This document shows, piece by piece, positions 10,849-16,997 of a stretch of 64,000 bases of DNA (within the stretch, counting starts at the first letter, position 1; each line of letters opens with the position of its first letter). The stretch covers positions 248,001 through 312,000 of the forward strand of contig MPPA01000010.1 of the NCBI GenBank assembly GCA_001896725.1. Reading direction: 5' to 3'. Below the pieces are notes generated by a model, which saw only the letters and a program-made list of their open reading frames with translations, was not told where the DNA came from and ran no database searches. The position numbers were made by a program, and so were the translations under genes. This DNA is from Methanococcoides sp. EBM-47. GTDB taxonomy: Archaea; Halobacteriota; Methanosarcinia; Methanosarcinales; Methanosarcinaceae.

Positions 10849-12336
10849 ATGGAGAAAAAAAGAGCAGTTCTCAATGATAATGCAAGTATGGTAGCTCAGT
10901 GTCATCATGGTATCCTTCAGGATGAACTTCGTGCAAGGACAGGTCCACAAAATATAGATGTACTTGATTTTAGCACGCGTCTCAATCCCATGGGCAATAT
11001 CTTCCAGTATCAGGACATTTTGGACCTGCATGATTTGATAGGGACCGCCAGGACCCTCACAGGTCAATACCCTGATAACAGGTACCTGGAGTTCAGAGAT
11101 GCTGCAGCAGGTTTTATAGGAAAAGGCCTCACCTCCTCGAACATCATACCAGGCAGTGGGGTATGTGAGATCATAAGACTTGTTCTGGGCTGTACCCTTG
11201 AAAAGAGAGACATCGTGCTGATCCCCTTCCCTTCCCCTCCGGAATATAGCCGGCATTCAAATTTGTTCGGTGCACGTGTGATCCTTCTTCCTCCCCATGA
11301 ACTGCTGCTGGCAGATGATAAAATACTATCCAGTGCCAAAGTGGTGCTGTTATCTAATCCCGGTGACCTGGGTGGACGCCTGATCCCCAGTAAGGAGCTA
11401 AGGTCTTTTGCTAAGAGATGTGCTAAGAACAGGACACTGCTCATCATAGATGAATCCTGCATCGAACTATCTGACCCTTCCCAGACCCTTGCGGGTCATA
11501 TACTTGATAACGACTTTGTCGTGGTGCTCCGTTCCATCACCCATGCATTTGCAATTCCTGGGCTTAACGCTGCATACGCTGCAGCTTCCAAGAAAATGGC
11601 CCAGCTCTTCAATAATGCCCGCCTTCCCTGGAGCATCGGTGCATTTGCAGACGTTTTGTGCACAGCGGTGCTCAATGTAGAAGGAGGTGTTAACTCCAGG
11701 TATCTGAAAGATTCCCGGGAGCTTATACATTCTCAGAGGGATTACTTGATCGAACGCATCGGGCGTATCCATGGTTTTTCCCCCCGCCCCTCGGATGCGA
11801 ACTATCTCCTAGTGGAACTCAAGGACCTCTTTATGGATTCGCATACCCTTACTAGGAACCTTGCAGCAAAAGGTTTTCTGATAAAGGACTGCAGTGATCT
11901 TTTCCAGGCAGGGAAGCAGTTTGTCAGGATAAGTGTGCATGCACAGGAAGATAACGAGACCCTTCTGAGGACCATAGGGGAAGTTCTTACCGAGACCAGT
12001 AAAGAGGATGCAAGGGAACGGCTGGAAGTTACCATTGGGAACGCTGCAGCAGGGTCTGTCCCTGCCAGCAGAGGTACATGCCAATACTACCCCTGCCATT
12101 TCTGGGGGCAGGATTGCACGTTCTGTTTTTGCCCGTTCTATGCCTGTGAGGATGAGCGTACCGGAGGGAAGTGGATAATAGGGTCCAGTGGCAATAAAGT
12201 GTGGAGCTGTGAGAACTGTACATATATACATCAGTCCAGGTTATCCCGTCAGATACTTGATATCCTTATGGAAGAGGGGGATACAGAGGATAATATAAAG
12301 AAGGCATGGGACCTGGTAATAAAACCTTTGATATGA
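10849..12336 (+). CDS. CobD-like protein lacking the PLP lysine (divergent tandem paralogue)
   Basis: A 495-aa protein homologous over its whole length to the next gene. The aminotransferase fold (residues about 30-370) resembles threonine-phosphate decarboxylase. The Cys-rich C-terminal domain contains YYPCHFWGQDCTFCFCPFY and a final CENC. The lysine that should bind PLP is His232 (SITHAFAIPG), the nearby phosphate-binding Arg is Asn240, and the NPNNPTGR motif reads NPGDLGGR. The Arg near the end of the fold (VRIS) is kept. PLP chemistry is therefore unlikely, yet the frame is intact. M. mazei CobD is reported to have L-threonine kinase plus decarboxylase activity, so this copy may be a kinase or a scaffold. 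ATG 10849 is preferred over GTG 10831 because AGGGGAG lies just upstream. Confidence 0.8.
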   Translation: MEKKRAVLNDNASMVAQCHHGILQDELRARTGPQNIDVLDFSTRLNPMGNIFQYQDILDLHDLIGTARTLTGQYPDNRYLEFRDAAAGFIGKGLTSSNIIPGSGVCEIIRLVLGCTLEKRDIVLIPFPSPPEYSRHSNLFGARVILLPPHELLLADDKILSSAKVVLLSNPGDLGGRLIPSKELRSFAKRCAKNRTLLIIDESCIELSDPSQTLAGHILDNDFVVVLRSITHAFAIPGLNAAYAAASKKMAQLFNNARLPWSIGAFADVLCTAVLNVEGGVNSRYLKDSRELIHSQRDYLIERIGRIHGFSPRPSDANYLLVELKDLFMDSHTLTRNLAAKGFLIKDCSDLFQAGKQFVRISVHAQEDNETLLRTIGEVLTETSKEDARERLEVTIGNAAAGSVPASRGTCQYYPCHFWGQDCTFCFCPFYACEDERTGGKWIIGSSGNKVWSCENCTYIHQSRLSRQILDILMEEGDTEDNIKKAWDLVIKPLI

Positions 12337-12393
12337 TCCTGCCATTCTATCATACTGGGACCGTGGAGCTGAAGCTATACACAAGTTAAATTT

Positions 12394-12412
12394 AATTAGA
12401 TAAGGTCTAATT
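12394..12412. promoter_or_regulatory. Inverted repeat upstream of cobD
   Basis: AATTAGA (12394-12400) and TCTAATT (12406-12412) form a perfect 7-bp inverted repeat around TAAGG, 40 bases before the cobD start codon and next to AT-rich TATA-like sequence (AACTTAATATAT). Position and symmetry suit a repressor operator. The regulator is unknown. Confidence 0.4.
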
Positions 12413-12451
12413 GAATAACTTAATATATGTCCTGTATTCTAAAAAAAGACG

Positions 12452-13963
12452 ATGACCGTGTCAAAACAAACAAGATTTATCCCTATCAGAGAACATCTGC
12501 TAAATGTCCAGCCCTGCGAACACGGAGGTCTGGTGAAAAAAACATCCCAGCAATATGGCATACCGGAATCCCAACTACTGGATGCAAGTGCCAGTCTTAA
12601 TCCCTATGGCACTCCGTTCGACCACCCATACACTGGGCTTGATATGGATAAGGTCTTAAATACTGCCCTTGGGAGGATAGGCCAGTACCCTGATAACCGT
12701 TATCTCGAGTTCAGAAATGCAGCTGCCCGTTTCGTAGGAAATGGCATACGGGCCGAAAATATAATTCCAGGCAATGGTTCTTCAGAGATAATCCGCCTGA
12801 TAGCAGAGACTGTGATAGTGGAAGGAGACATTGTGCTCATCCCGTCACCCACTTTCAGTGAATACGAACAGCAGTGCAGTATATTCGGAGCTGATATCCG
12901 GTACATAGAGCAGGACTTGCTCCCAGATGTGCCCAATGATATCTTAAAGGAGGCAAGGTTACTTTTCTTGTGCAATCCCAATAACCCCACTGGCAGGTTG
13001 TTCAGCCGTGAAGAAGTTCAGCTTCTTATGGACAAATGCCGGGAGAATGACGTTGTCCTTTTCGTTGATGAAGCTTTTATAGAACTGGCAGACCCCTCAC
13101 AGACCATTGTGGACCTGGTGGGGTCCAATGACCATCTTATCATCCAGCGTTCCCTTACCAAGGCCTTTGCAATCCCGGGCATCAGAATGGGCTTTGGGGT
13201 TGCTTCGGCAAGGATCGCAACAATGCTTAATGATGCAAGGCTTTCCTGGAATCTGGGATGTGTTGCAGAAGAAGTGAGCACTGTCCTCATGAGCATGGAA
13301 GGTGGCTGTTACAGCCGATACCTTCTGGAATCCAGGGAAATGATCTCCAGAGAAAGAGATTTCCTCATGCAGAAGCTGGAACGCCGCGGGTTCAGACCCA
13401 TTGAGAGCGCTGTTAATTTTATCTATGTGGACATAAGCGATCTGTCCATGGATTCCACTGAACTGACCGAAAGAATGGCAGAGCATGGCGTACTAATAAG
13501 GGATTGCAGTTCTTTCCAGGATATTGGAAAACATCATATACGCATAGCTGTGCGTACAAGAGAGGAAAATGAAAGGATAGTGGACTGCATAAGGCAGGTC
13601 ATTCAGGAATGGGGAAAAGAACAGGCAATTATTTATCTTGAGCGTAACCTGGCAAAGGCCCGGGATAAAGGACCACTGGGAAGCAACAGGGAATGTAAAT
13701 ACTACCCATGTCATTTTGAAGGTCAGGATTGTACTTTTTGTTTCTGTCCGTTCTATCCGTGCCAGGACGAACGTACTGAAGGTAAGTGGATAACAGGTTC
13801 AAGTGGTAATGAGGTCTGGAGCTGTCTTGATTGCAAGGTGGTGCATGAGCCTGCCGTGGTGGAAAAGCTGATAAGTGTGCTTAGTGTGGAGGGATGCACT
13901 GAAGAAGGGCTTAGGAAGGCATGGGAAGTGGTCATGGAGCCTTGGTTATGTTCTTCACAATAA
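12452..13963 (+). CDS. cobD: L-threonine-O-3-phosphate decarboxylase CobD with Cys-rich C-terminal domain
   Basis: A 503-aa PLP enzyme that makes aminopropanol phosphate for the cobalamin nucleotide loop. It keeps all fold-type-I aminotransferase signatures: NPNNPTGR, DEAFIEL, the PLP lysine Lys237 in SLTKAFAIPG and the phosphate-binding Arg245. The C-terminal 110 residues form a Cys-rich domain (YYPCHFEGQDCTFCFCPFY, then CLDC). In the M. mazei homologue the corresponding region is reported to bind iron and to support both L-threonine kinase and decarboxylase activity. It is followed by cbiB, whose start lies inside its last codons. About 115 bases separate it from its lysine-less paralogue. 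Confidence 0.9.
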   Translation: MTVSKQTRFIPIREHLLNVQPCEHGGLVKKTSQQYGIPESQLLDASASLNPYGTPFDHPYTGLDMDKVLNTALGRIGQYPDNRYLEFRNAAARFVGNGIRAENIIPGNGSSEIIRLIAETVIVEGDIVLIPSPTFSEYEQQCSIFGADIRYIEQDLLPDVPNDILKEARLLFLCNPNNPTGRLFSREEVQLLMDKCRENDVVLFVDEAFIELADPSQTIVDLVGSNDHLIIQRSLTKAFAIPGIRMGFGVASARIATMLNDARLSWNLGCVAEEVSTVLMSMEGGCYSRYLLESREMISRERDFLMQKLERRGFRPIESAVNFIYVDISDLSMDSTELTERMAEHGVLIRDCSSFQDIGKHHIRIAVRTREENERIVDCIRQVIQEWGKEQAIIYLERNLAKARDKGPLGSNRECKYYPCHFEGQDCTFCFCPFYPCQDERTEGKWITGSSGNEVWSCLDCKVVHEPAVVEKLISVLSVEGCTEEGLRKAWEVVMEPWLCSSQ

Positions 13964-14940
13964 GTGGGTATGAACTGATCATCGTATTGGTCCTGGCATT
14001 TATCATTGATCTGGTACTAGGGGAACCGCCCTTTGCCATACACCCTGTTGTATGGATAGGTAGAACGATCTCATTTTTCAAGCACATAGCACCTTCTGAG
14101 CACAGAAAGGTATATGGCATCTTTATGGCATTATGCTGTGTTATTTTTGCTGCTCTTATTGGTATTGTTGCCACATTGGTATTGAGTGCTGAAAGCATAC
14201 CTGCACTGATACGCTACCTGGTAGCAGCCTGGTTCCTGAAGATGACATTTGCTGTACGCTGCCTTATGGATGCAGGGAAAGAAGTATATGGAAAACTTGC
14301 CACAGGTGACCTGGAGGGAGCAAGGAAAGGTCTTTCCATGTATGTGAGCAGGGATACCTCAAAACTAACACCGGAGCAGGTATCATCCGCTGTGATCGAG
14401 ACAATGTCCGAGAACTTTGTTGATGGCATCCTTTCACCGTTGTTCTATTTTGCATTGTGCGGACCATTTGGGATCATCGCAGCATATGTGTTCAAGGCAA
14501 CAAGCACCCTTGACTCCATGGTGGGTTACAGAGATCCCAAATACCTGCATCTTGGCTGGTTCTCAGCAAGAACAGATGATATATTGAACTGGATACCTGC
14601 CAGACTGTCCCTGATACCCATATCCATGGCATCTGTTCTCCTGAGCCTTGTACCATCGTTCTCCAGATCCATTTATCCGGCAGATGCTGTCAAGATCGCC
14701 ATTAAGGATGGAGCAAAGACACCCTCCCCGAACTCAGGCTATCCCATGGCGGCTTTTGCTGGGGCTATGGGCATTCGTCTTGAAAAGCCCAGTACGTATG
14801 CTTTGGCGAAAAAGAACCCGTATCCTCAGTTCTTCCATATCGGATTGGCACGCAGCCTTGTACTGAGCTCTTCTATGGTCTCTGTGCTGATGTGTGCTTC
14901 TGCGGTTTATATTATCATGGACCGTTTCTATATATTATAG
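13948..14940 (+). CDS. cbiB: Adenosylcobinamide-phosphate synthase (CbiB/CobD type)
   Basis: A 330-aa integral membrane protein that joins adenosylcobyric acid to aminopropanol (phosphate). It shows the family features DLVLGEPPFAIHPVVWIGR near the N terminus, FVDGILSPLFYFAL, and the loop YRDPKYLHLGWFSARTDD...PARL. Several hydrophobic segments place it in the cytoplasmic membrane beside CobS. ATG 13948 is preferred over ATG 13921 because it starts just before the first membrane helix and has TGGAG upstream. It overlaps the end of cobD by 16 bases. Confidence 0.9.
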   Translation: MFFTISGYELIIVLVLAFIIDLVLGEPPFAIHPVVWIGRTISFFKHIAPSEHRKVYGIFMALCCVIFAALIGIVATLVLSAESIPALIRYLVAAWFLKMTFAVRCLMDAGKEVYGKLATGDLEGARKGLSMYVSRDTSKLTPEQVSSAVIETMSENFVDGILSPLFYFALCGPFGIIAAYVFKATSTLDSMVGYRDPKYLHLGWFSARTDDILNWIPARLSLIPISMASVLLSLVPSFSRSIYPADAVKIAIKDGAKTPSPNSGYPMAAFAGAMGIRLEKPSTYALAKKNPYPQFFHIGLARSLVLSSSMVSVLMCASAVYIIMDRFYIL

Positions 14941-14953
14941 GCTTGAACAAGTG

Positions 14954-15559
14954 ATGAGTATGAAATTATCAGATATCAAAAACAATGACATGAAAAAAGA
15001 CCAGCCAAAGGAACTGGAAGATGATGCTCCTCTGGACATAAGGGATATACTGGCAGAGGAAGGTATCACTGTACAGATGCTTATCGACACAGCGCTTGAG
15101 CTGTATGTTCCCCATCCCGGGATAGAGACCAGGGAAAAGGCAGAAGAAGTGTTTTTGGGAGAACTGGACCTGGCCCTGTCCGACCCTAACCTGTGCCTTC
15201 TCATATACTCTGGTATACTTCTGGAAAAAGAAGGACGCAAAGGTCACCTTCCGAACATCAGCAGGAGCTCATATGAAAAGGACCTTACGTTCATAATAGC
15301 TGACGAAGTTCTCGGGATGAGCATCTCAAGATATATTAGTGGTGATAAGGGTACTTTTGAGTTCGTGCGTTTCGATAAGCAAAAACCAGGCATTCTTTCA
15401 AAACTAGGTCCTTTTATGGACGATGTCATTGGCGGACTTATAGGCGGTGTTTCCGCAAACATGTATACCCGGGGCATGGCCAGAACAGATCTGAAAAAAG
15501 AAAAAGAGAGTGAAAAAAAGAACAAAAATAAAGACAATACTGGTGTGATCGCAGGATGA
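14954..15559 (+). CDS. cobZ: Alpha-ribazole-5'-phosphate phosphatase CobZ
   Basis: A 201-aa protein with a polar N-terminal tail and a PgpA-like domain ending in GTFEFVRFDK and FMDDVIGGLIGG. In M. mazei the homologue in the same gene position is the alpha-ribazole phosphatase that replaces bacterial CobC. The real start is most likely ATG 14954 (GTG 14951 is adjacent); a longer frame from 14894 would lie inside cbiB. The C terminus is a Lys/Glu-rich tail, and its stop overlaps the cobS start (ATGA). Confidence 0.85.
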   Translation: MSMKLSDIKNNDMKKDQPKELEDDAPLDIRDILAEEGITVQMLIDTALELYVPHPGIETREKAEEVFLGELDLALSDPNLCLLIYSGILLEKEGRKGHLPNISRSSYEKDLTFIIADEVLGMSISRYISGDKGTFEFVRFDKQKPGILSKLGPFMDDVIGGLIGGVSANMYTRGMARTDLKKEKESEKKNKNKDNTGVIAG

Positions 15560-16386
15560 ACGATTTTCTTCTGGCAGTACGTTCTGGCTTTGGTTTTCTC
15601 TCTACCATCCCTGTCGGATTGACAATGGAAGGTCTTGATGAGTTTTTCAAGAGGACTTACCTACATATATTCGTAGGTGCTTTTTTAGGGTTGCTGATGG
15701 GGATATTTGCTTTCTTGACCATAATGGTATTGCCACAGCAAATAAGCGCCATAATGATCGTTGTTTTTGTATACTATCTTACCGGCCTTAACCATCTTGA
15801 TGGCCTTGCAGACTTTGGAGATGGCTTGACCGCCCATGGTTCTGTGGAAAAGAAGATCCGTGCGCTCAAGGATATTGGACTTGGTATAGGAGGTGTAGGA
15901 TTTTGTACAATGGGTATTCTGGCATTCTATTCATCTATAGTGTCCCTTCGGTCCGAAGCCCTTGTGTTCTCAGGTAACGACATGTTATACACTGCTAAAA
16001 TATTACTTTGCTCCATGCTGGTGGCTGAAGTGTCTGCAATGCAATGCATGCTGACAATAGCAGCCTTTGGCAAGTCTCTTCATGAGGGATTGGGTTCTAT
16101 CCTGGTTCAGAAAACAACACTGCCGAAGTATGTTGTTGGTCTGACAGGTTCAGTTATAATATGTTCACTTGCCCTGATACCCTTGGGGATCTGGCATGGG
16201 GGGCTCATTGCCCTTATTGCTGCGATCATTTCAGCTTTTATCATATTGAACATCAGTAACCGGCATTTTGGAGGGATGAACGGGGATGTGATCGGTACTT
16301 CCAACGAGATCGGAAGAACTGTTGCCCTTATAGTGATCGTATTGGTATTGAGCTATCAGAACGGAGGTATTCCATGGATGCTATAA
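15556..16386 (+). CDS. cobS: Adenosylcobinamide-GDP ribazoletransferase CobS
   Basis: A 276-aa polytopic membrane protein that condenses AdoCbi-GDP with alpha-ribazole. The signature segment TGLNHLDGLADFGDGL (about residues 72-87), with its acidic metal-binding residues, and the later GGMNGDVIGTSNEIGR motif are both present. About six to seven hydrophobic helices are visible. It is coupled to cobZ by an ATGA overlap, and cobY starts 13 bases before its end. Confidence 0.93.
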   Translation: MNDFLLAVRSGFGFLSTIPVGLTMEGLDEFFKRTYLHIFVGAFLGLLMGIFAFLTIMVLPQQISAIMIVVFVYYLTGLNHLDGLADFGDGLTAHGSVEKKIRALKDIGLGIGGVGFCTMGILAFYSSIVSLRSEALVFSGNDMLYTAKILLCSMLVAEVSAMQCMLTIAAFGKSLHEGLGSILVQKTTLPKYVVGLTGSVIICSLALIPLGIWHGGLIALIAAIISAFIILNISNRHFGGMNGDVIGTSNEIGRTVALIVIVLVLSYQNGGIPWML

Positions 16387-16997
16387 TCATGGCCGGAGGT
16401 CTGGGGAGCAGGCTTGGAATGGGTGAAAAACCATGTGTGAGCTTACTGGACAAACCATTGATAACTTATGTTATAGATGCTCTGCACGGGTCCTCTGGAA
16501 TAGATAAGGTGTATGTTGCAGTCTCTCCTGCCACACCCCTGACCCAGAGCTTCCTTCAGAGAAAGTACAATGGAACGGTCAGGACCATTATGACCAGCGG
16601 AGGCAATTATGTAGGTGATATGATTTATGCCGTCAAAGAGGCGGCTATAAATGAGCCGGTCCTGATCATTATGTCCGACCTGCCATTGCTTAATGGCAAG
16701 CATATTGATTATGTTATAGAGGAGTACAAAAAATGCGGGAAACCTGCAATGTCAGTATTCTCCCCGCTGGCAATCTGCAAAGAACTTTCAGTAAGACCAG
16801 ATACAGTCTTTAATTGGGAGGGAGAGTTGATCGTACCTTGTGGTGTCAACATCATAGATGGCAGCAATATCGAGCAGGAGCAGGACTATGAGAGCCTGAT
16901 ATGTCAGGACACTGCCTTTGCATTGAACATAAACCGTGCTGAAGATCTGCGCAGATGCAAAGAGATAATAGAACAAAGACTACTATCACAGTCATGA
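16374..16997 (+). CDS. cobY: Adenosylcobinamide-phosphate guanylyltransferase CobY
   Basis: A 207-aa NTP-transferase-fold enzyme, the archaeal non-orthologous replacement of CobU. The N-terminal GTP-binding motif is MAGGLGSRLGMGEKPC. It charges adenosylcobinamide phosphate with GMP, giving the substrate for CobS. Its start overlaps the end of cobS by 13 bases, so it is the last member of the five-gene coupled unit. Confidence 0.92.
   Translation: MDAIIMAGGLGSRLGMGEKPCVSLLDKPLITYVIDALHGSSGIDKVYVAVSPATPLTQSFLQRKYNGTVRTIMTSGGNYVGDMIYAVKEAAINEPVLIIMSDLPLLNGKHIDYVIEEYKKCGKPAMSVFSPLAICKELSVRPDTVFNWEGELIVPCGVNIIDGSNIEQEQDYESLICQDTAFALNINRAEDLRRCKEIIEQRLLSQS

Follow-up and report, generated by a model that had tools for sequence, protein, structure and literature searches.

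A 64,000-nucleotide stretch of archaeal DNA (the window; Methanococcoides sp. EBM-47, GenBank assembly GCA_001896725.1, contig MPPA01000010.1, positions 248,001 to 312,000, forward strand) carries two tandem genes related to cobD, the first of which (copy 1) has lost the lysine that forms the Schiff base with pyridoxal 5'-phosphate (PLP), while the second (copy 2) retains it. Here, we report that copy 1 is a genuine CobD paralogue, PLP-dead yet conserved, of a kind that has evolved repeatedly. It is probably a maintained PLP-free product of the duplication of a two-function archaeal CobD, kept for a function tied to its Cys-rich domain.

Copies 1 and 2 aligned end to end, including the Cys-rich domain (43% identity over 482 aa; E = 2e-148), and both matched PF00155 and PF04071; a membership test for CobD gave 178 bits for copy 1 and 290 to 291 bits for copy 2. 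Structure prediction gave copy 1 an ordinary CobD fold (mean predicted local distance difference test score [pLDDT], 73.8, low in the Cys-rich part), and its closest match in the PDB was Salmonella enterica CobD (1lc7; template modeling [TM] score, 0.80 on target). His232 of copy 1 aligned with Lys237 of copy 2, which corresponds to Lys216 of S. enterica CobD; Pro130 occupies the place of the PLP-stacking aromatic residue (F135 in copy 2, F108 in S. enterica CobD), Asn240 that of the phosphate-binding Arg (R245 in copy 2), and Lys346 that of another substrate-type Arg (R350 in copy 2), and NPNNPTGR reads NPGDLGGR. The substrate-type Arg of the VRIS motif (R360) is kept, as are the Cys motifs, with 8 Cys and 2 His invariant across all groups of relatives. 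The initial annotation had described the end-to-end alignment, the intact 495-aa frame, the changes at the lysine, the phosphate-binding Arg, and NPNNPTGR, and the retained VRIS and Cys motifs, and all of these were confirmed.

A survey covered 112 genomes of the family, each with a CobD relative, and residues were read at about 80 loci; the window pair was counted within the Methanomethylovorans group (6 genomes). The tandem pair was present in 6/6 Methanomethylovorans and 27/27 Methanolobus genomes, in the order copy 1-copy 2-cbiB-cobZ-cobS-cobY wherever the contig permits. Lysine was missing from the upstream copy in 33/33 genomes and present in every downstream copy; H takes its place in Methanomethylovorans (6/6), and N, G, R, or D does so in Methanolobus (27/27). 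Chance or sequencing error was ruled out by this identical pattern in 33/33 genomes of two genera. Copy 1 was intact in all 33, neither absent nor frameshifted, and the refuting condition that the initial annotation had set for its proposal of a split by duplication therefore did not hold. The lysine-less tandem copies formed one clade with full support, and lysine was kept in all fusions read from Methanosarcina, ANME-3, Methanosalsum, Methanimicrococcus, Methanoperedens, other ANME-2, and Methanocellales.

Within the lysine-less tandem clade, only the Lys and the stacking aromatic were lost universally, and Asp201, Ser229, Tyr74, Tyr133, Glu107, and Arg360 were invariant. The changes of copy 1 at N240, D173, L174, and K346 are recent or genus specific, since R, N, P, and R, respectively, stand there in most relatives. 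Forty sites conserved in single-copy and downstream CobDs were lost in the lysine-less copies, mainly near the PLP pocket. In the reverse direction (lost in the downstream copy, kept in the lysine-less one), there were only 3 such sites, too few to demonstrate strict complementary degeneration.

Methanohalophilus has its own lysine-less copy (8/8 genomes), which directly abuts cbiB, with a lysine-bearing copy about 20 kb away; this is the reverse of the window locus, where the lysine copy adjoins cbiB. The Methanohalophilus copy grouped with the cbiB-adjacent copy of Methanococcoides, a genus with lysine in both of its CobD copies, in a part of the tree where two long branches meet and caution is needed. 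A single origin of all lysine-less rows was rejected (approximately unbiased [AU] test, p-AU 0.0014), and the loss in Methanohalophilus appears to be a second, independent event. In 6 of the 8 Methanohalophilus copies (L091, L092, L271-L273, and L241), a lysine lies one residue early (RSLKD or RSLKY/N), so an out-of-register lysine may stand in there. Immediately upstream, the Methanohalophilus lysine-less copy is preceded by a methyltransferase-like gene (L240:3009-3758 and equivalents) that weakly resembles CbiT and isoaspartate methyltransferases. In Methanococcoides (L072-L082), a second cobY-like gene lies between the two lysine-bearing copies, and the Cys domain is better conserved in the cbiB-adjacent one.

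Rates were compared on identical genome pairs for both copies, which removes the effect of divergence time. The PLP-dead copies are under purifying selection: the ratio of nonsynonymous to synonymous substitution rates (omega), a check already suggested in the initial annotation, was 0.075 to 0.153 for the lysine-less copy and 0.036 to 0.108 for its partner in the genome pairs listed. The PLP domain evolved 2.07× faster in copy 1 than in copy 2 (95% interval, 1.83 to 2.37), against 0.93× for the Cys domain and 0.62× for the tail (PLP/Cys ratio, 2.23; 1.54 to 3.22). The result was repeated in Methanohalophilus, where the lysine-less PLP domain was 2.02× faster (PLP/Cys ratio, 1.97; 1.25 to 3.16). 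Relative to single-copy CobD, the PLP domain of copy 1 is relaxed and that of copy 2 is tighter, with a relatively looser tail in copy 2 (tail/PLP, 1.96 versus 1.06). In the lysine-less copies, constraint has thus moved away from the PLP domain and toward the Cys-rich domain. The contrast was weaker between the two lysine-bearing copies of Methanococcoides (PLP, 1.25×; Cys, 0.56×), which suggests that some specialization may predate the loss of lysine.

The Cys-rich domain also persists where more of the protein has gone. One Methanolobus genome has a third CobD-like copy (L320:4660-6168) whose PLP domain is strongly degraded but whose Cys-rich domain is intact; a distant lineage has a PLP-dead CobD-Cys fusion, again with the Cys-rich domain intact (L321:4267-5631), and a second genome of that lineage retains just the Cys-rich part (L325:1492-1959). 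We did not find cbiB in either genome of this lineage; both genes directly follow a gene for an adenosylcobalamin (AdoCbl)-type ribonucleotide reductase, and L321 also has a gene for a BtuF-like binding protein nearby. Family f4 combines a PLP-only CobD of about 385 aa with an unlinked protein of about 190 aa at another locus, made of the small subdomain and the Cys domain. In family f7, a small stand-alone Cys open reading frame directly follows a PLP-only CobD, and PF04071 is also fused to a glycerophosphodiester phosphodiesterase (GDPD) domain (L127, L128, L131, L133, L137, and L140). These forms show that the Cys-rich module can be separated and that it is what persists. Within the lysine-less clade, the small subdomain and the large domain evolved at indistinguishable rates (ratio, 1.04; 0.75 to 1.42), and the rates there thus give no counterpart to the f4 unit of small subdomain plus Cys domain. 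An argD-like aminotransferase gene adjoins the gene for the f4 small protein in three genomes (loci of this protein: L264:4629-5192, L265, L266, and L270).

In the explanation that we favor, the ancestor would have been a two-function CobD that joined a PLP decarboxylase to a Cys-rich metal-binding domain, and its gene would have been duplicated; copy 2 would keep L-threonine-phosphate decarboxylation, and copy 1 would have given up PLP chemistry and been retained for a function tied to the Cys-rich domain, acting inside the operon for the aminopropanol linker and nucleotide loop of vitamin B12, possibly as a mixed dimer with copy 2. CobD of Methanosarcina mazei (MM2060 type), an L-threonine-phosphate decarboxylase, reportedly also has L-threonine kinase activity and an iron-binding C terminus. 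The copy that lost PLP function differs by lineage, as expected under such a split if both copies had begun bifunctional. The retained function would then lie in the same pathway and most probably be the preceding step, L-threonine phosphorylation, which is the leading candidate because of the kinase activity reported for M. mazei CobD, because the operon serves that branch, and because PduX was not found among the three GHMP kinases scanned in the window genome (mevalonate kinase, shikimate kinase, and beta-RFAP synthase). A fourth GHMP kinase is probably pantoate kinase, judged from its neighborhood, since a phosphopantothenate-synthesis gene adjoins it. We hold the kinase step itself only tentatively, and rather more hesitantly the fuller proposal that copy 1 is a PLP-free L-threonine kinase on a fold-type I PLP-enzyme scaffold with a Cys-rich metal domain, a kinase that would have arisen from an aminotransferase-like fold and been separated from the decarboxylase by duplication at least two times.

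Several observations weigh against this explanation. Copy 2 keeps every Cys and His and differs just by a faster tail, and full bifunctionality may thus reside in it; a kinase motif was not found. The L321 lineage has its lysine-less fusion but neither cbiB nor a clear CobD, and the Cys domain is fused to GDPD in f7, so this domain also has roles beyond the aminopropanol pathway. The initial annotation had proposed that duplication split the two functions: a division of labor is borne out by two PLP losses in different positional copies, purifying selection, the shift of constraint, and the separate modules elsewhere, but for a retained L-threonine kinase there was no site-level evidence to separate it from a metal-binding or mixed-dimer role.

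The main rival, to which we give a minority chance, is that copy 1 is catalytically inert by itself and would pair with copy 2 in a mixed dimer, contributing an intersubunit tyrosine loop plus one more Cys-rich domain in the manner of LCB1 toward LCB2 in serine palmitoyltransferase. Within the PLP domain of the lysine-less clade, the seven-residue window that varies least is QYPDNRY (identical across the 32 genomes in which both copies are full length), whose Tyr is the equivalent of S. enterica Tyr56 and by homology would reach the PLP phosphate of the neighboring subunit, and the loop RLPWSIG is also among the best-kept segments; this Tyr is retained while the cis PLP binders (Lys and stacking Phe) have disappeared from every copy of the clade. 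The CobD fold predicted for copy 1 would suit such a role, and a precedent exists in hLCB1, which without the PLP lysine pairs with hLCB2 (PMC3794620). However, both segments are also relaxed relative to copy 2 (1.6× and 2.3×), Phe occurs in part of Methanohalophilus, the loop is entirely gone from the third Methanolobus copy, the f4 form has no large domain, and L321 has no evident CobD partner. Furthermore, the Arg of YPDNRY (Arg78) hardly varies among fused CobDs but does vary among PLP-only CobDs, so that it tracks fusion to the Cys domain and the loop may be kept for another reason; A91 was the sole site specific to fused versus PLP-only CobDs that passed the filter. The Tyr of QYPDNRY would fit a mixed dimer and its Arg a role in a second function, and both readings fit.

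That copy 1 serves only to carry the Cys-rich domain, as an iron store or for Fe-S or metal delivery, and catalyzes nothing in the aminopropanol branch seems improbable to us: this domain is the sole module kept in every PLP-dead form and sometimes all that remains (L325), it occurs fused to GDPD, and L321 lies beside the reductase and BtuF-like genes in a genome without cbiB, but co-location with cbiB-cobZ-cobS-cobY is strict in three genera and the PLP-fold sequence is still selected. ColD-type sugar dehydratases have His in place of the PLP lysine. A comparable new chemistry with PLP or pyridoxamine 5'-phosphate (PMP) in copy 1 is very unlikely, since Methanolobus orthologues have N, G, R, or D instead, the stacking aromatic is lost in all, and the phosphate-binding Arg is lost in Methanomethylovorans, despite a His invariant in the 6 Methanomethylovorans copies and the retention of Asp201 and Ser229. 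Least credible is a decaying pseudogene; the degraded PLP motifs and twofold-faster PLP domain would suit one, but the gene is intact in 33/33 genomes of two genera, with omega near 0.1 and a Cys domain as conserved as that of the active copy, and this candidate was rejected on the conservation across relatives.

Among known systems, copy 1 is closest to the M. mazei MM2060-type fusion, with which it shares PF00155 plus PF04071, operon position, Cys/His pattern, and fold; unlike that type, it has no Schiff-base lysine and no stacking aromatic, has other PLP-site changes, and sits beside a canonical copy. S. enterica CobD (PDB 1LC5/1LC7/1LC8) shares the fold and the equivalents of Tyr56, Asp185, Ser213, and Arg337, whereas the equivalents of Lys216 and Phe108 are gone from copy 1, which has the extra Cys-rich domain. 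LCB1/SPTLC1 of serine palmitoyltransferase, a lysine-less fold-type I subunit, is likewise a lysine-less paralogue retained beside an active PLP subunit, but it belongs to another family; the lysine-less state of CobD arose at least twice and elsewhere shrinks to a Cys module, and a mixed dimer would be a conjecture for it. The likeness to ColD is the His at the lysine position in Methanomethylovorans, although this His is not conserved in orthologues and the PLP site is otherwise degraded. The L-threonine kinases PduX (GHMP) and BluE catalyze the step that copy 1 possibly serves (EC 2.7.1.177) but have no sequence relation to it; copy 1 matched PF00155 and PF04071 alone, with no GHMP kinase fold.

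Haloarchaea have a cobD1/cobD2 pair (HVO_0591/HVO_0593), with a gap noted at EC 2.7.1.177 (PMC8305020), and so resemble the window pair in a duplicated CobD and a missing threonine kinase. Haloarchaeal-type CobDs differ in keeping Lys where the motif was read and in having no Cys domain; at the haloarchaeal loci read, no second, lysine-less copy was found (one CobD match per locus, RSLTK or RALTK). In the open-access literature searched, we found no account of PLP-dead CobD paralogues and, on duplicated CobD in Methanolobus, only PMC8305020, which treats haloarchaea and lists archaeal L-threonine phosphate synthesis as a pathway gap for them.

The M. mazei CobD, with its two reported activities, has been hard to dissect because both are in one chain; the methanogens described here appear to have parted them genetically, more than once. 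The function of the Cys-rich domain thereby becomes approachable in a natural protein incapable of the PLP reaction. The lysine-less copies are also a clear example of the repeated origin of a PLP-dead paralogue in a cofactor pathway, and automated annotation may mislabel them as decarboxylases. Coordinates of both copies and of the operon genes that follow are given in Table 1.

Table 1. Features of the tandem cobD locus, in window coordinates
Feature	Coordinates	Strand	Remarks
Copy 1, lysine-less CobD paralogue	10849..12336	+	495 aa from ATG (501 aa from GTG 10831)
His232 codon, position of PLP Schiff-base lysine	copy 1, 11542..11544	+	
PF04071 Cys-rich domain, copy 1	12073..12276	+	8 Cys and 2 His, all invariant
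Copy 2, canonical CobD-Cys-rich fusion with RSLTK	12452..13963	+	Lys237 codon 13160-13162
PF04071 Cys-rich domain, copy 2	13679..13876	+	
cbiB, adenosylcobinamide-phosphate synthase	13921..14940	+	Operon gene after copy 2
cobZ, alpha-ribazole phosphatase	14894..15559	+	True start probably near 14960
cobS, adenosylcobinamide-GDP ribazoletransferase	15556..16386	+	
cobY-like adenosylcobinamide-phosphate guanylyltransferase	16374..16997	+	Scores under curated cut-offs
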